NCBI GenBank assembly: GCA_031281945.1
Contig: JAITER010000066.1
Coordinates: forward strand, 1 to 37,707
From: Spirochaetaceae bacterium
GTDB taxonomy: Bacteria > Spirochaetota > Spirochaetia > Treponematales > Breznakiellaceae
DNA: 37,707 nt
Direction: 5' to 3'
The notes under the pieces were generated by a model. That model worked only from the letters and a program-made list of their open reading frames with translations. It made no database searches and was not told the origin of the DNA. How positions within the stretch are numbered: the stretch's first letter is position 1; each line of letters begins with the position of its first letter. Position numbers and translations under genes: made by a program. Shown here piece by piece: positions 256-26,315 of this stretch.

Positions 256-636
256 TTGCGATCTTTACCGGAGGCGGCGATTTTGATATATTTACAAATG
301 ATAGAAGAAGTCGGCTGTAACTTAGCCGCGAAGCCCCAGCGTATTTTTTGGGAGATGACAAAGATGGCGCGTATAACCGTAATAATCGTTCTGGTGGGGG
401 GGGCGCCCCCCCCCCCCCCCCCCCCGCCCCCCCGGGGGCCGGCCGCCGCCCCCCCACATGAACGATTAATACGGTTATACGCGCCATCTTTGTCATCTCC
501 CAAAAAATACGCTGGGGCTTCGCGGCCAAGCTACGGCCGCTTTCTTCTATCACTTGAACCTGTTCCAAAACTTGCGGTTTTAGAACTATCTCACTTACAA
601 ATATACCAAAATCGCCGCCTCCGGTAAAGATTGCAA
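256..636. repeat. Long imperfect inverted repeat, poly-G/C core
   Basis: The left arm is about 256-403 and the right arm about 450-636. Bases 325-381 and 470-526 are perfect reverse complements over 57 bp. Outside this core the arms diverge by scattered substitutions, and the right arm carries about 41 extra bases (the palindromic element at 550-596). The centre holds G8 (396-403), C20 (406-425), C7 (427-433) and G5 (434-438). The divergence between arms argues for two real copies rather than a simple fold-back artefact, although the homopolymer core would be error-prone in sequencing and assembly. Confidence 0.85.
550..596. mobile_element. Palindromic mini-element with 6-bp duplication
   Basis: Two copies of tcactt (550-555 and 591-596) flank 35 bases containing the dispersed palindrome: gttccaaaac and ggttttagaac are its half-sites. 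The opposite arm of the surrounding inverted repeat lacks these bases and has one related tcattt at the same place, so it represents an empty site. The pattern is what a small non-autonomous insertion with a target duplication would leave. It encodes nothing. Precise deletion from the other arm is the alternative explanation. It belongs to the same family as the palindromes at 6671, 13274, 25037 and 26270. Confidence 0.55.
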
Positions 637-5611: not shown

Positions 5612-5739
5612 TAAAACCTGTTCCGTATAATGGAACAACTAAAATATCCGGTTCACGGCCTTGCGCGGTGAATACGAGAAATATCAGAAGGGTGTTTGTA
5701 AACGGCGGTTTTGGCCGGACAAACAATGTGGAGGAAAAT

Positions 5740-6624
5740 GTGGCGGTAGTTACAATGAAGAGCCTCTTGGAATCAGGGGTTCATTTCGGCCATCAGGTCA
5801 AACGCTGGGATCCGCGTATGAAAAAATATATTTTCGCGGAGCGCAACGGCATACACATCATAGATTTGCAAAAAACCATACAGGCCAGTAAAAATGCGTA
5901 CGACGCCGTACGCAAAGTTATTTCGGATAATAAAAAAGTTCTATTTGTAGGGACTAAAAAACAGGCGCAATTGGCCATTCAAAAAGAAGCGGAACGTTGC
6001 GATCAATTCTACGTAAACCAACGCTGGCTTGGCGGAATGCTTACAAACTTTTCAACAATAAAAAAATCACTTTTACGGCTTAAAAAGCTCGAAAAAATGG
6101 AAGTGGACGGCACTTTCGAAAACCTTACAAAAAAAGAAGTGGCCGCCCTTGGAAAAGAGCGCTCGAAACTGCAAAAAAACCTGGGCGGAATTAAAGAAAT
6201 GAAAGAATTGCCCGGGATTCTTTTTATCATAGATACGCGCAAAGAAGCCATTGCGGTAACGGAGGCGCGGCGCATGGGCATACCGACGGTCGCCGTTGTA
6301 GACACAAATTGCAACCCGGAAGGTATAGATTACCCGATACCGGGCAACGATGACGCAATTCGGGCCATCACTTTATTTACGCAAATTATCGCCAACGCCG
6401 TTGTTGACGGCGACACTGAAGCCGGCCTTAGAGTTGTTGAAAGTTTGGACGGCGAAGACGACATAAACGAAGAAATCCTTACCGACGCCTCCCGTAAAGA
6501 AGAAGACGAAGAAATTGATATAGAAAGTTACAAAGGCGACGCTTCCCCCAAAAATGAATATTCGGAAGGAGACGAAGAAGAAGGAGAACTGCCCATAGCG
6601 GTGGATAAAACTTTCAAAGAATAG
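5740..6624 (+). CDS. rpsB: 30S ribosomal protein S2
   Basis: S2 binds the outer surface of the small ribosomal subunit and is needed for S1 binding and mRNA docking. The protein is 294 residues. It opens with the family hallmark [11 protein letters not shown] and [10 protein letters not shown], then has [31 protein letters not shown] and [23 protein letters not shown]. The start is GTG at 5740, supported by GGAGG at 5730-5734; an in-frame upstream ATG at 5668 lacks such a site. Beyond the conserved core there is a strongly acidic tail of about 55 residues (runs such as EEDEEIDIE and GDEEEGELP) that E. coli S2 lacks. It heads the rpsB-tsf-frr-uppS cluster. Confidence 0.97.
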
Positions 6625-6670: not shown

Positions 6671-6713
6671 ATTGAGGCTGTTCCAAAACCCTGTTAGTTT
6701 TGACAGACTCAAT
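6671..6713. repeat. Dispersed palindrome, copy 2
   Basis: This 43-base near-palindrome has outer arms attgag/ctcaat and inner arms ccaaaac/gttttg. It lies between rpsB and tsf and would form a hairpin in their shared transcript. Related copies lie at 556-590, 13274-13310, 25037-25082 and 26270-26315. Confidence 0.7.
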
Positions 6714-6808
6714 TTTCACTTTAAAAATACAGCCGCCTGGCGCGGCTCTTAAAACAAAAAATAACGGTTTTACTGATTTTTTCAATAAAATTGTTGCAGG
6801 AGATAAAA

Positions 6809-7657
6809 ATGGCAGTTACAGCGGCGGATGTAAAAGCTCTGCGAGAAAAAACGGGCGCGGGCCCGGCGGAATGCAAAAATGCGCTCACCGAAACAAACGG
6901 CGATTTTGAGGCGGCGGTGAAGCTTTTAAAAGAAAAAGGCCTGGCTGCGGCGGAAAAACGCGCTGACAGGGCGACTAACCAGGGCCGTATAGCGGTAAAA
7001 ACAGCGGAAGATGCGGCGGCGCTCGTGGAGCTGGTTACAGAAACCGATTTTGTAGCCAGAAACCCCGAATTTATCGCTCTTGCGGACGAAATCGCGCAAA
7101 CGGTTCTGGATAAACGTATAAAGGAACCCACCGGCGAATTAAACGATATGGTAAAAGCCCTGGCGACCAAAATCCGCGAAAACATGAGCCTTAAACGCAT
7201 TAAGTTGCTGGAAGCCGGTGAAGGCGTTATTCTGGGTTCGTACATACACGGAGAAGGCGCTATCGGGGTTGCGGCGGCTCTTGGCTCGGATAAACCGGAA
7301 GCCTTAAAAACAAAAGAAGCGCAGGATTTAGTTTTTAGCTTGGCTATGCACGCGGCGGCGTTCAATCCGCAGGCTCTTTCCAAGGCGGATATAAAACCGG
7401 AAATTATAAAAGAACAAGAAGAAATCTTCCGCAAACAAATGGAAAAGGACGAAAAATTAAAAGACAAGCCCGCCAACGTACTGGACGGGATACTAAAAGG
7501 CAAAATGAACAAATATCTCGCCGATTTAAGTTTTGTAGACCAGGCTTATCTAAAAAACGAAAAAATTACTGTGGCGAAAGCCCTGGAAGAAGCCGGTAAA
7601 GCCGCAGGGGCAAAATTTGAAATTAAAGATTATGTTTATTTTAAAGCTGGCTGTTAA
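6809..7657 (+). CDS. tsf: Elongation factor Ts
   Basis: EF-Ts is the guanine nucleotide exchange factor that regenerates EF-Tu-GTP. The 282-residue protein begins with the UBA-like N-terminal domain: VKALREKTGAGPAECKNAL, then GDFEAAVKLLKEKG. The core EF-Tu contact motif TDFVARNPEF follows, then IGVAAAL and VFSLAMHAAAFNP, the usual landmarks of the dimerisation and core domains. ATG 6809 is preceded by caggag (6797-6802); a TTG at 6791 would overlap that SD. The gap from rpsB is 184 bases with a hairpin and a palindromic repeat, so rpsB and tsf levels may be separately set. Confidence 0.97.
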   Translation: MAVTAADVKALREKTGAGPAECKNALTETNGDFEAAVKLLKEKGLAAAEKRADRATNQGRIAVKTAEDAAALVELVTETDFVARNPEFIALADEIAQTVLDKRIKEPTGELNDMVKALATKIRENMSLKRIKLLEAGEGVILGSYIHGEGAIGVAAALGSDKPEALKTKEAQDLVFSLAMHAAAFNPQALSKADIKPEIIKEQEEIFRKQMEKDEKLKDKPANVLDGILKGKMNKYLADLSFVDQAYLKNEKITVAKALEEAGKAAGAKFEIKDYVYFKAGC

Positions 7658-9078: not shown

Positions 9079-9180
9079 AAAAGACGCCTTCCAGAAAAAA
9101 TACAGATTAACGTTTCCGCCGGCATTATAAAATCAATTTTAGACGAGCGGCGGTTTTTATATTATATTTGTTCAATAGAG

Positions 9181-9295
9181 TTGTTCGGAAACTTCAGTTT
9201 CCGCAAGTTGAACCAAACTCAGACTTAGGTTCAGTCAACTTCCGCTTAAAAAACGACTTGGGCGGCGCCCAACAGGGTTGGCGAACAAGTCCAAT
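9181..9295 (-). repeat. Composite repeat, copy 1 (inverted)
   Basis: Read on the minus strand, this copy starts attggacttgttcgc (9295-9281) and ends cttgcggaaactgaag then tttccgaacaa (9207-9181). The same ends occur in the same order at 13048-13230 and, less well conserved, at 25011-25162. It is the shortest copy (115 bp) and lacks the internal gcaaaatgct block. No coding frame is present. It occupies much of the uppS-fusA gap (9079-9359), in which no gene is seen. Confidence 0.6.
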
Positions 9296-9359: not shown

Positions 9360-11411
9360 ATGTTAGAAACAATGCGAAACATAGGCATAATGGCGCATAT
9401 TGACGCCGGAAAAACAACCACAACAGAACGAATTTTGTATTATACAGGTAAAAGCCACAAAATAGGAGAAGTTGACGACGGCGAAGCCGTTATGGACTGG
9501 ATGGAACAGGAACAGCAACGCGGCATAACTATACAAAGCGCGGCGACCACCGCTTACTGGGAGCGCGCATGGAAAGGAAAAACTCAAAAATTCCAAATAA
9601 ATATTATCGACACCCCAGGGCACGTTGATTTTACAGCGGAAGTAGAGCGTTCTTTGCGCGTTCTGGATGGAGCGATAGCCATATTTGACGCCGTTCACGG
9701 CGTTGAACCGCAAACAGAAACCGTTTGGAGGCAAGCTGAACGCTACCATTCGCCATGTATAGGATACATCAACAAAATGGATAGAATGGGCGCGGATTTT
9801 TTCTTTGTTTTGGAAGATATACAAAAAAAACTGGGCGCGCTTCCCATAGCGGCGCAGCTTCCAATAGGCAAAGAAAACGGGTTTGAAGGCGTCATAGACC
9901 TTGTTTTAATGCGGGAAATACGTTTTTTGGGTGACGGCGGAGAAACCGTGGAATTTTGCGAAATAGCGCCGGAACGTAAAGAAATCAGCCTCAAATGGCG
10001 CGATAAACTTATAGACGCGCTTTCCGGCGTTTCAGACGCGGTTACGGAGGCGTACCTCGCCGGAGCCGTTGACGAAAATCTTATACGCGAAGAAATGCGC
10101 AAAGCCTGCCTTTCGCGGGCGATACTGCCCATTTTCGCGGGGGCGTCGCGCAGAAACAAAGGCGTTCAACCTTTAATCGACGCCATTGTAGACTACCTGC
10201 CCTCTCCGGTAGAGGCCAAGGAAACCTATGCTTTTCATTTAAAAAAAGAAGAAGAAATCACAATACCATGCGACCCAAAAGGGCCGCCTTTAGGGCTTGT
10301 TTTTAAGATACAGAACGACCGCGAAGCCGGCGGGCTTTGCTACGTGCGTATGTATAGCGGCTCAATCTCGCCCGGAAACCCGGTTTTTAATGTAGGCAAA
10401 AAAAAACGTGAACGGGTAAACCGTATTTTGCGTATGCACTCCAATAAATCGGAGCCGCTGGACGTTCTTTGCGCCGGGGATATAGGCGTAATTATAGGGG
10501 TTAAATTTTCGCAAACCGGAGACACGCTGGGCGTCGAAGGCTTTCCTGTAATGCTGGAAAAAATGCAGTTTCCAGAACCTGTAATAAGCGTTTCTATCGA
10601 ACCAAAAACAGCCAGCGAGCGCGACAGATTAAAAGAAGCGCTGGAAATTCTCTCCAAAGAAGACCCGACATTTACAACAAAAGAAAACCAGGACACAGGC
10701 CAGCTTATAATTTCTGGAATGGGCGAATTGCACATAGATGTGCTTGTAACGCGGATATTAAAAGAATTTAAAGTTGAAGCGTCTGTTGGAAGCCCGCAGG
10801 TAACATACCGCGAATCTGTGAGTTGCGCAGTTAATAAAAAAATGGACTTTTCGCGCACCCTCGCAGGTAAAGAAAATTCCGCTTCGGTAACTTTGCGCAT
10901 AGAAGCGCTGGCTCGTGGAAGCGGCAACCAGTATCACAACGAAGTAAAAGCGCCAAATGTTCCAAAAGAAATTTTTGAGGCTGTAGAACGCGGCGTTACC
11001 GGCAGTTTTTTATCGGGAATAATTTTGGGGTACCCCTGTATAGATGTGGGCGTTACACTCACAGCTATTGGCTTTTCACCGCTCACCGGCACGGAATTCG
11101 CGTTTGAGGCTTGCGCCAGCATTTGTTTTGACGAGGCGGCCAAAGAAGCCGGCCCCGTCCTTCTTGAACCGGTTATGGCGGTTATAATTACATCGCCAAA
11201 AGAATCCCTGGGCGATGTAATAAGTCTTGTAACACAACGCGACGGGCAAGTGGAAAGCCTTAACAACACGGCTAGTCACGAAGAAATAAAAGTAACCGCG
11301 CCTATGTCAAAAATGTTTGGTTTTATGACGCAACTTAGGTCTGTAAGCCAGGGGAGGGCGAATTTTACAATGACTTTTTCTCATTTTGAAAAAAAGGCGG
11401 AAAAAAAATAA
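9360..11411 (+). CDS. fusA: Elongation factor G
   Basis: EF-G is the GTPase that drives ribosomal translocation or, with RRF, recycling. The 683-residue protein has G1 AHIDAGKT (residues 12-19), RGITIQSAA, G3 DTPGHVDF and G4 NKMD, then the usual domains II-V including GMGELHIDV. ATG 9360 follows aaaagga at 9347-9353. Spirochaetes are known to carry two EF-G types, one for translocation and one for recycling. The segment KLGALPIAAQLPIGKENGFEGVIDLV slightly recalls the mitochondrial EF-G2 (recycling) type, but I cannot settle the subtype by eye. It overlaps the next gene by one base (taATG). Confidence 0.95.
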   Translation: MLETMRNIGIMAHIDAGKTTTTERILYYTGKSHKIGEVDDGEAVMDWMEQEQQRGITIQSAATTAYWERAWKGKTQKFQINIIDTPGHVDFTAEVERSLRVLDGAIAIFDAVHGVEPQTETVWRQAERYHSPCIGYINKMDRMGADFFFVLEDIQKKLGALPIAAQLPIGKENGFEGVIDLVLMREIRFLGDGGETVEFCEIAPERKEISLKWRDKLIDALSGVSDAVTEAYLAGAVDENLIREEMRKACLSRAILPIFAGASRRNKGVQPLIDAIVDYLPSPVEAKETYAFHLKKEEEITIPCDPKGPPLGLVFKIQNDREAGGLCYVRMYSGSISPGNPVFNVGKKKRERVNRILRMHSNKSEPLDVLCAGDIGVIIGVKFSQTGDTLGVEGFPVMLEKMQFPEPVISVSIEPKTASERDRLKEALEILSKEDPTFTTKENQDTGQLIISGMGELHIDVLVTRILKEFKVEASVGSPQVTYRESVSCAVNKKMDFSRTLAGKENSASVTLRIEALARGSGNQYHNEVKAPNVPKEIFEAVERGVTGSFLSGIILGYPCIDVGVTLTAIGFSPLTGTEFAFEACASICFDEAAKEAGPVLLEPVMAVIITSPKESLGDVISLVTQRDGQVESLNNTASHEEIKVTAPMSKMFGFMTQLRSVSQGRANFTMTFSHFEKKAEKK

Positions 11412-12934
11412 TGTTGCTGGATTGGTTTTTTTCTATATTTTCATCTTTGGGGAATTCTCCAAGCGCTCTAAAAAAAAACGCGATGCGCCGCATTGCTAAA
11501 GAAATCAAAAAATCTAATTTTTCTAAATTTTATAATCCTTCCAAAAAAATTCTAACCGTTGAATTCGCTTCTTTTTTTTATTCAATTTACTTGCACATAG
11601 AGTCGCATACAAAAATCACAAAGAAATTCAATTCCCTGGAAAGCGCTGTAATTAATTTTTTTTTAAACTCCACGCAAAAAGCTCTTTTAACAGCGATTAC
11701 GTATGAAAGTATAAAAACGCAATCAAAAAAGTTATCGCAAAAACTTCTAAAAGACTCCGTGTTAAAAAATATAGAAAAAGCAAAAAAAATGTTTACGCCG
11801 TCATGGATGGAAAACGTAAATAAATACTACAATCTTATTCTTAATTTTGCGTGGATAGCCTCTTTTGATTTTTTTTCCCTTATTAAATTATTCGACCCAA
11901 ACATTAAAGAAGAAGATTATTTTACAAAACCTTATTTTTCTAAACTTCAGTCCGTTATAGCTTTGGAAAATATAAAAGATTTTCTTGCAATAAGTGTAAA
12001 TATAAATGTTCGTTACAAATGGAGCGTTGTTTTTGAAATACTTTCCGAAATCGATTCAAAAAATTTAGCTTTTGAAAATTGGAATTATATTGTAAGCCAG
12101 TTAACAAAATTGCAAAATTCCAAAATTTTGGAGAATATAATTAAGCATACGGAAGAAAATCCTTACTGGGAAAACAATCCTATACTCTCAAAAGAAAGCA
12201 TTGCGGAAAAATTTATTGCTAAAACAATGAATGACGCGGAAGTGTTTGTGGAAAATATTTTAAAAGAAAGCCAAAACGATCATGTTGATATAATTTTAAA
12301 AAACCTTTACGGCGAAAATTGTAAAAGCTTCGTGTTTTGTAAATATAATTCTAAAGAATCTCTGCTTTTTGAAAATAGAGGATTTAACAGTTTCGTCTAC
12401 TCCGACAAAATAAATTATTCGTACATTTTCTATTATTCATTCTTTGTGGATATAAAACAATTATGCGATATTCTAATTGTCCATGGCGAATGGTCGTCAA
12501 AAGAAACCTGCAACACGCTTTCTTCCGCTTTAGACCAGCTTTCAAATATAAACACATCGTTAACCGCTTTTATACGGAACATGAGCGAAGATGGAATTTT
12601 GCAAACCAAGATGTACGACCTTTTAAACAAATCCAACAAGGAACGCAGGTACAAAGAAGAGTTGCGCAGGCTTATAGCGGATGTTAACTTTCAAGCTAAA
12701 ACAATAGTTGTGGATACAATCAAGAATTTAACTGTTGTTGGAAAAATAATAACGGAGTTGTCGCTGGAAAAATCGACAAAAAAATTAAAAATTATCATTA
12801 ACTGGGCGTTATTGGATGAATATTTGAACGATTCTAGTTTCAATATTTTAGAAGCCGAAAAAAAAATAAACGATTTCCTATTGCTCGTAAGCTGGGACGA
12901 CCCGGAAATCGAAGCTTTGCCCGTATCCGCATAA
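11411..12934 (+). CDS. Unknown AT-rich protein coupled to EF-G
   Basis: I do not recognise this 507-residue protein with confidence; it may belong to a spirochaete-restricted uncharacterised family. It is rich in Lys, Asn, Ile and Phe, predicted mostly helical, with no signal peptide, no clear membrane span and no catalytic motif I can name. The N-terminus is hydrophobic for about 12 residues (LLDWFFSIFSSLG), then basic. Its ATG overlaps the EF-G stop by one base, so translation is probably coupled. Base composition is clearly more AT-rich than the neighbours, with many poly-A and poly-T stretches. The intact 1.5-kb frame argues for a real gene. Confidence 0.8.
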   Translation: MLLDWFFSIFSSLGNSPSALKKNAMRRIAKEIKKSNFSKFYNPSKKILTVEFASFFYSIYLHIESHTKITKKFNSLESAVINFFLNSTQKALLTAITYESIKTQSKKLSQKLLKDSVLKNIEKAKKMFTPSWMENVNKYYNLILNFAWIASFDFFSLIKLFDPNIKEEDYFTKPYFSKLQSVIALENIKDFLAISVNINVRYKWSVVFEILSEIDSKNLAFENWNYIVSQLTKLQNSKILENIIKHTEENPYWENNPILSKESIAEKFIAKTMNDAEVFVENILKESQNDHVDIILKNLYGENCKSFVFCKYNSKESLLFENRGFNSFVYSDKINYSYIFYYSFFVDIKQLCDILIVHGEWSSKETCNTLSSALDQLSNINTSLTAFIRNMSEDGILQTKMYDLLNKSNKERRYKEELRRLIADVNFQAKTIVVDTIKNLTVVGKIITELSLEKSTKKLKIIINWALLDEYLNDSSFNILEAEKKINDFLLLVSWDDPEIEALPVSA

Positions 12935-13273: not shown

Positions 13274-13310
13274 AATTGAGGCTGTTATAAAACTGAAGTT
13301 TTAGAACAGC
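13274..13310. repeat. Dispersed palindrome, copy 3
   Basis: attgaggctgtt begins the left half and aaaact/agtttt form the central arms, ending agaacagc. The outer right arm is degenerate compared with the copies at 25037 and 26270. Confidence 0.6.
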
Positions 13311-13376
13311 AACCTTAGACTTAATAGAAAAAACGGCGTTTGAGCGCCTTTTCTAAGAGGCTGTTTGGGGGTGATT

Positions 13377-14720
13377 ATGTTTGGCGGAAAGCGCTATGGG
13401 TTTTTAATCCTGTTTATTGTCTTTATTCTTTCTTGCGTTGGAATCGCTTTTTTTTCGTGTGAAGCTCTCAATTTTGAAGGATTGGAAGATGAACCCGAAA
13501 AAAACGGAGAACCCGCCGGCGTAGAGGAAACTGAAACGCCGCCAGATAAAGACGCAAACTTTTTTTTATACCCCCCAGCCATGTTTAAAACAGCGACGTT
13601 AAATTATACGGACGGAAGCGTTCGCGGCGGAATATCTGTACATTCGTCTTCAAAAATCAGTTCCTTTGCCGTTCCAAAAGAAGATCACGAAAAAACAATT
13701 TATAGCATAAGCCTTTATCCTTCCGGCGGCGTAATCCTTTTGGGAAGAAATGCCGGAGAAACAATATCGCTGGAATTCAACCAGGATAAAAAACTTGTCT
13801 TTCGCACAAACCAGCAAGGCTCTTTGCTCAATCCAATTCCCATAGGTTCTTACGAAGAATTGATGTTGCTTAAAGCGGCATTCGATGTAGAAGCTACGCC
13901 AAACCCTCCTGTATATTTGCAGGCGGCTTTTTTACAGGAAGCCGATATAGACCTCTTTGGAGATATTTTTTACAGCTTAAAAGGAATGCGCGTCTTCTGG
14001 ACGCCCATAGGCAAAATAACCCCCGAAGGCAACCCGGAACGGCCTTTTAACGGGATTTATGACGGCGGCGGGAAAAAACTTTACAACCTTACAATAAGCT
14101 CCGGCGAAAAAAACCAAGGCTTTTTCGCCGCGATAGGAGACGCCGGTGTAGTAAAAAACATCAGTTTGAAATTCGCAAGCCTGGAAGCTGGAAACAACAG
14201 CGGCCTTATTTGCGCGTTTAATTATGGAACAATAGAAAATTGCGGCGTTTCCGGCATTTCAAAAAGGGCCTGGGTTCAAGAAGCCGGAGTTAGTTCAGCC
14301 GGAATATGCGGCACAAACAAAGGCTCAATAATCGCCAGTTACTTTATTGGCAACGTTGACGGTGTAGAAAGGCTAGGCGGCGTTTGCGGCGTAAACAACG
14401 GGGAAGTTCAAGCCAGTTTCCACTACGGGTCAATAACAGGCTCCGGCGACGATAATTGCCATATTACAATGGATAACAGCATAGGAACTGTAAGCTCCAG
14501 TTTTTGGTACGATCCTTACGGCGGGGTTCAAGACACGAATGAGACGGGAGACCAATTTGGAGCTTCGTCCTGGCCTGTTTTAACCGAAATTGACCCGCAA
14601 GAAGCATGGTCTACGTACAAGAAATACGGAGACGACGAGGAGAAAGGCCGCTGGAAAACGGCGGGATCGCCTTCCGATACTCCCGCTAACAGCAACCTGC
14701 CAAAACTTTGGTTCGATTAA
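13377..14720 (+). CDS. GLUG-repeat surface lipoprotein
   Basis: This 447-residue protein has an N-terminal lipoprotein signal: KRYGFLILFIVFILSC (Cys20) followed by a second candidate AFFSC (Cys28). Spirochaetal lipoboxes are loose, so either Cys could be lipidated. From about residue 215 it has the beta-helix entry PFNGIYDGGGKKLYNLTI, then GLUG-like turns with repeated N-Y/K/N-G and GG-x-x-G elements (FNYGTIENC, TNKGSI, GGVCGVNNGEV). GLUG domains are found in secreted and surface proteins, some proteases or adhesins. No protease motif is visible here. ATG 13377 is chosen with gggggtg just upstream; GTG 13371 and TTG 13365 are alternatives. It is likely exported and lipid-anchored. Confidence 0.85.
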   Translation: MFGGKRYGFLILFIVFILSCVGIAFFSCEALNFEGLEDEPEKNGEPAGVEETETPPDKDANFFLYPPAMFKTATLNYTDGSVRGGISVHSSSKISSFAVPKEDHEKTIYSISLYPSGGVILLGRNAGETISLEFNQDKKLVFRTNQQGSLLNPIPIGSYEELMLLKAAFDVEATPNPPVYLQAAFLQEADIDLFGDIFYSLKGMRVFWTPIGKITPEGNPERPFNGIYDGGGKKLYNLTISSGEKNQGFFAAIGDAGVVKNISLKFASLEAGNNSGLICAFNYGTIENCGVSGISKRAWVQEAGVSSAGICGTNKGSIIASYFIGNVDGVERLGGVCGVNNGEVQASFHYGSITGSGDDNCHITMDNSIGTVSSSFWYDPYGGVQDTNETGDQFGASSWPVLTEIDPQEAWSTYKKYGDDEEKGRWKTAGSPSDTPANSNLPKLWFD

Positions 14721-25011: not shown

Positions 25012-25162
25012 TTGGACTTATTCAAAAACATGACTGATTGAGGCTGCTCCAAAACACGGTTGGTTTTGAAACAGTCTCGATTGCTAAATAAATCTTGCAA
25101 AATGCTACGTATTTTGCTGTTTTTAAGCGGTTGTTGTTCAAAAATTGAAGTTTCTGAACCAA
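25011..25162 (+). repeat. Composite repeat, copy 3
   Basis: It starts attggacttattc directly at the hisD stop codon and ends ttgaagtttctgaacc. The internal block cttgcaaaatgctacg then tattttgctg (25094-25118) matches copy 2. A complete palindromic repeat (25037-25082) lies inside it, where copies 1 and 2 have other sequence, which suggests insertion of one repeat into another. Confidence 0.6.
25037..25082. repeat. Dispersed palindrome, copy 4
   Basis: attgaggctgctcc and its mirror acagtctcgat bound the centre ccaaaac-acggttg-gttttgaa. It lies within composite repeat copy 3, between hisD and the SPFH gene. Confidence 0.7.
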
Positions 25163-25187
25163 TCCATTAAAATTTAAGGAGTTTGCG

Positions 25188-26269: not shown

Positions 26270-26315
26270 CAATTGGCTGTTTTCAAAACCCGGTTGGTTT
26301 TGAAACAGCCTCAAT
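26270..26315. repeat. Dispersed palindrome, copy 5
   Basis: The best-preserved copy: ttcaaaacc-cggtt-ggttttgaa in the centre with ggctgt/acagcc outside. It lies between the convergent SPFH operon and the phosphofructokinase gene. Confidence 0.75.

Follow-up and report, generated by a model that had tools for sequence, protein, structure and literature searches.

The closest described relatives of the element reported here are the type II prokaryotic MITEs, exemplified by QMITE1 of Coxiella (39–400 bp) and Chunjie of Geobacter, which are non-coding, carry terminal inverted repeats like those of insertion sequences (IS), are flanked by target duplications and occur as many intergenic copies, with IS likeness confined to the ends (PMC10969869). 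RUP of Streptococcus pneumoniae is an intergenic element of ~100 bp, presumed to be mobilised in trans, with ends that match IS630-Spn1 and insertion at TA (PMC2229807). Short intergenic palindromes, either single or as paired inverted hairpins around a spacer, are also formed by the REP and REPIN sequences that go with RAYT transposases (PMC3733652, PMC3116915), REPs being marked at one of their ends by an unpaired GTAG (or CGTC) tag (PMC3733652).

Here we describe a 37-bp palindrome in a spirochete contig of 37,707 nucleotides (the whole stretch analysed, hereafter the window), which is very probably a very small non-autonomous transposable element, belonging to an IS-derived type II MITE family that would be mobilised in trans and having inserted into a gene leader that is itself repeated, in one of the copies. 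The family shares with QMITE1 and Chunjie the traits listed above, and differs from them in sequence and host, in having the ends of a DUF772/DDE IS of termite Treponema, and in that a large fraction of its copies measure 36–40 bp and are nearly ends only. With RUP it has in common the intergenic location, a length of ~100 bp, IS-matching ends and presumed trans mobilisation, but it shows a 4-bp target duplication and the ends of a DUF772/DDE IS. Unlike REPs and REPINs, it lacks the GTAG/CGTC tag, has a 4-bp duplication and takes its ends from an element whose transposase is of the DDE, not the tyrosine, type. As far as our searches show, the family is new by sequence and host and ordinary in kind, MITEs being already known; a literature search found no paper on MITEs in termite Treponema.

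Results and Discussion

The window corresponds to contig C61 of a genome of 2.49 Mb (99 contigs, 94.9% complete), and near the start of this contig lies an inverted repeat with arms at 281–417/434–570 (137 nt, 85% complementary) and 256–301/591–636 (46 nt, 89%). The first-pass annotation had described the two arms as differing by about 41 bases, and this is borne out by alignment, with the palindrome present in the right arm and absent from the left. In the right arm TCACTT (550–555) is followed by GAACCTGTTCCAAAACTTGCGGTTTTAGAACTATC and then by a second TCACTT (591–596), whereas the left arm holds one AAATGA (296–301), that is, TCATTT on the opposite strand. The limits of the element follow from an alignment of family copies to the filled right arm, and the 41 extra bases consist of the 37-bp element and a 4-bp duplication, ACTT (Table 1). 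The flanking letters had been read correctly, but the 6-bp target duplication deduced from them has to be shortened to these 4 bp: the repeat seems six letters long because CTC closes the element itself and, on the left, TC happens to precede ACTT, and duplications of 5 and 6 bp show no enrichment at the family boundary. When the window was shuffled 100 times, the palindrome core was never matched by chance, and an Rfam search of the window gave no match.

Table 1. Positions of the element, its flanks, its host leaders and further family copies in the window
Position	Strand	Feature	Basis
256..391	+	empty copy of the repeated gene leader, target AAAT at 296–299	leader copy comparison
392..455	.	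G/C homopolymer centre (GGGGGGGGCGCCCC...) between the empty and the filled leader, perhaps an assembly join	like junction in C57
456..638	-	repeated gene leader, filled copy, comprising the upstream region, a GGGAG ribosome-binding site and the MARITV... start	matches C46, C23, C54, C55, C99 copies
552..555	.	target duplication ACTT (4 bp), left copy	sequence; exactly-4-bp enrichment at boundary
556..592	.	solo MITE, a palindromic mini-element of 37 bp with ends GAACC... / ...TATCTC	family alignment, boundary statistic, DNA hairpin fold z = -3.5
593..596	.	target duplication ACTT (4 bp), right copy	sequence; exactly-4-bp enrichment at boundary
6674..6711	+	family copy between ORFs 5668–6624 and 6791–7657	
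13278..13313	+	family copy between ORFs 11411–12934 and 13365–14720	
25040..25078	+	39-bp solo copy, exact 4-bp duplication GATT (25036–25039, 25079–25082)	
26297..26312	-	single element end, 1 mismatch to consensus	

The family was counted by pattern searches and in retrieved stretches of the genome. The 16-mer end GAGGCTGTTCCAAAAC has, at ≤3 mismatches, 198 matches in the genome versus 27 for the reversed control, and 44 matches (E ≤ 0.01) are obtained with the full-length element as query. Copies fall into two size classes, solo palindromes of 36–40 bp and longer elements of ~100–140 bp (most commonly 119–120 bp), both with GAG(G/C)CTGTT(C/T)CAAAAC at either terminus as terminal inverted repeats. 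The long copies are built as end hairpin, middle hairpin and end hairpin, and the solo copies have two centre types that resemble the two end hairpins of the long ones. The earlier impression that the copies sit only between genes holds up, with 0 of 11 lying mostly inside an ORF across contigs that total 354 kb and are 85% ORF by a simple proxy.

Exact duplications are enriched at the GAG.../...CTC boundary, and at a length of 4 bp only: they flank 5 of the 20 solo copies (0.95 expected from the shuffled mean; p = 0.0012), 9 of the 19 long copies (1.57 expected; 0 of 20,000 shuffles as high) and, in other genomes, 23 of 62 long copies (1.0 expected; 0 of 20,000 shuffles), with AT-rich sequence (ATTT, AATT, GATT, TATT) in many of the 37 duplications. 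This enrichment supports the insertion with target duplication proposed in the first-pass annotation and, together with the filled and empty copies, argues for a mobile family. Against this, three quarters of the solo copies have no exact duplication, several of them being degenerate or resembling an end hairpin left from a longer element in decay.

The leader that hosts the insertion belongs to a gene family and is found in C61 (twice), C46, C23, C54, C55 and C99, several of these copies being cut by contig ends. Five leader copies cover the insertion site, four filled and one (the left arm) empty, and these are paralogous repeat copies, not alleles. Outside the insert the filled copies are 2–7% apart and the empty copy lies 10–14% from them; this greatest divergence, seen in the empty copy, favours a single insertion that would have taken place after the empty copy split off, with the filled leader duplicated afterwards. 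The relatives searched gave no outgroup leader, and in same-genus genomes, checked for orthologous empty sites, DNA identity is ~70% and synteny is broken. In the two arms, the starts of two leaders are opposed on either side of GGGGGGGGCGCCCCCC...; this tail-to-tail inverted repeat may be an assembly join, because the same palindromic G-run/CG/C-run (window 396–425) recurs in contig C57 (L151 574–596), at a break between GC-rich and AT-rich sequence, and the remaining leader copies pass through a plain C-run into the body of the gene. Junctions of this palindromic type are possibly chimeric assembly joins. The comparison of filled and empty copies is unaffected by such a join, because two leader copies suffice for it.

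The gene family that the leader precedes is lipoprotein-like (MAYTTVINVQDPPPPP...SVFLFFACASPE) and has a C run just past the start; its loci are L149 38–90 (C55), the end of C99, L001 (C46, reverse strand) and the two leaders in Table 1. The C run is in frame in C55 and C99 (16 C), whereas the run of C46 is longer and out of frame; as far as can be told from the reading frames, this suggests that these genes are switched on and off by slippage in the run.

In related spirochetes, these ends lie on either side of a DUF772/DDE transposase (~380 aa, in an IS of ~1.2 kb), and a DUF772 plus DDE_Tnp_1 transposase (~370–400 aa) or its remnants occurs in 33 of 120 same-family genomes, the genome of the window not being among the 120. 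Ends with 0 mismatches to the degenerate consensus lie beside transposase copies or remnants at L212, L218, L219, L221, L225, L256 and L257, and the retrieved transposase loci hold 72 end-like matches versus 2.3 expected, some overlapping loci being counted twice. In the complete genome G045 the IS copies measure 1,217 bp and have the ends GAGCCGATTTCAAAATC, two of the four being flanked by exact 4-bp duplications (TCTA, TTAA). MITE and IS have only their ends in common, as in type II. This exact match of the ends in relatives makes a DUF772/DDE IS the likely source of the family. The putative parent transposase resembles the IS1182 and IS5 families in its DUF772 and DDE_Tnp_1 domains, with the IS1182 model NF033551 as best NCBIfam match (83.9 and 80.2 bits versus a 270-bit cut-off) and IS5 models also matched, but every NCBIfam score is well under the curated cut-off and the transposase is best viewed as a relative, without family assignment.

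The first-pass annotation saw no transposase that would move the palindrome, and this extends to the genome at large: no intact transposase of the DUF772/DDE type turned up in its 99 contigs (94.9% complete), whether searched for with PF01609, with PF05598 or directly by protein sequence. The sole DDE_Tnp_1 remnant, C57:915-1247, was rejected as mobiliser, being a stop-riddled pseudogene with a lone, partnerless end-like match on the far side of a homopolymer junction. Autonomous elements were also sought in loci of other MAGs as ends paired 700–2600 bp apart; no matching duplication was seen among the best 45 of 66 pairs, and none of the ORFs inside six such pairs, read by eye, is a DUF772/DDE transposase.

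Being short, palindromic, intergenic and present in many copies, the element could be taken for a REP moved by an IS200-like, REP-associated tyrosine transposase, and one Y1_Tnp gene is indeed present in the genome (G000:C57:18078-18413). It is the single Y1_Tnp match, is broken by 3 stops and leaves no intact RAYT match, which answers the call in the first-pass annotation for a REP-associated transposase; with symmetric GAG/CTC ends in the aligned copies in place of an unpaired GTAG/CGTC tag, and with a 4-bp target duplication, we find this explanation extremely improbable. It is also very improbable that the palindrome is an immobile regulatory hairpin, retained by selection as a terminator or RNA processing site. 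The hairpins are strong and in the solo copies departures from consensus are mirrored between the arms beyond shuffled pairings (2 of 5000 shuffles), which may reflect hairpin selection, templated repair or common subfamilies, but hairpin-templated repair could account for the mirroring, the window copies that were read have no T-run after the stem, and neither precise 4-bp duplications nor an empty site would be expected of such a hairpin.

Two further alternatives accept a MITE and concern its history. Palindromes with short flanking direct repeats are known sites of replication slippage, and the insert could be ancestral to the leader family, with the empty arm a secondary empty site from which the palindrome was lost by precise deletion between the 4-bp repeats. 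That four of the five leader copies covering the site are filled agrees with such a loss; the divergence of the empty copy fits an early split before insertion, and we judge the loss unlikely. The solo palindromes could, with somewhat less than even likelihood, be remnants of the ~119-bp MITE, shortened by loss of the interior once they had inserted; either end of the 119-bp form is itself a solo-like hairpin. The hairpin, middle, hairpin order of the long copies and the likeness of the two solo centre types to their end hairpins point this way, as do the QMITE1 copies, reported to be 39 to 400 bp long and better conserved in their ends and repeats than elsewhere (PMC10969869). Yet solo copies are common and uniform in length, and since 5 of 20 have an exact 4-bp duplication, independent shrinkage would need a precise internal deletion each time. 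The reverse proposal, which is tentative and rather doubtful, is that the unit which transposes is the 37-bp palindrome itself, made of back-to-back inverted repeats with a centre of a few bases, and that pairs of such palindromes would capture DNA and give the ~119-bp miniature composites. A transposition unit of 37 bp stands at the very low end of MITE sizes.

Among named genomes, matches to the element pattern are mostly in Treponema/Spirochaetaceae MAGs, the sample codes of which we take to be those of termite-gut metagenomes. Peribacillus/Bacillus (L078, L085, L092, L124) and planctomycetes (L073, L087, L112) also have elements that are similar in length and closely resemble the family in their ends, and because these phyla are unrelated this end type may be widespread. 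The window also holds a second hairpin repeat family (9176–9203 and 25097–25168), GTTGTTC..GAAACTTCAGTTTC..GAAC near CGCTTAAAAA, with matches of 75–97% identity in same-genus genomes.

Conclusions

Like MITEs, the family has terminal inverted repeats, target duplications, short and numerous copies without a transposase gene, and ends in common with an autonomous IS. The 37-bp element would amount to little beyond the two terminal inverted repeats of a ~1.2-kb DUF772/DDE IS, the transposase of which, we infer, recognises GAG(G/C)CTGTT(C/T)CAAAAC ends (also written GAGSCTGTTYCAAAAC) in trans. Insertion at a staggered 4-bp cut would have left ACTT on either side, in one leader copy that then presumably carried the element to several loci, with the other leader copy in the window remaining empty. 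These data document a MITE family in termite-gut spirochetes with its ends, its duplication length and its probable parent transposase. The solo copies of 36–40 bp raise the question of the minimum size for a DDE-mobilised element and, if the palindromes are themselves the unit that moves, a DDE-type mobile element could be as small as ~37 bp.
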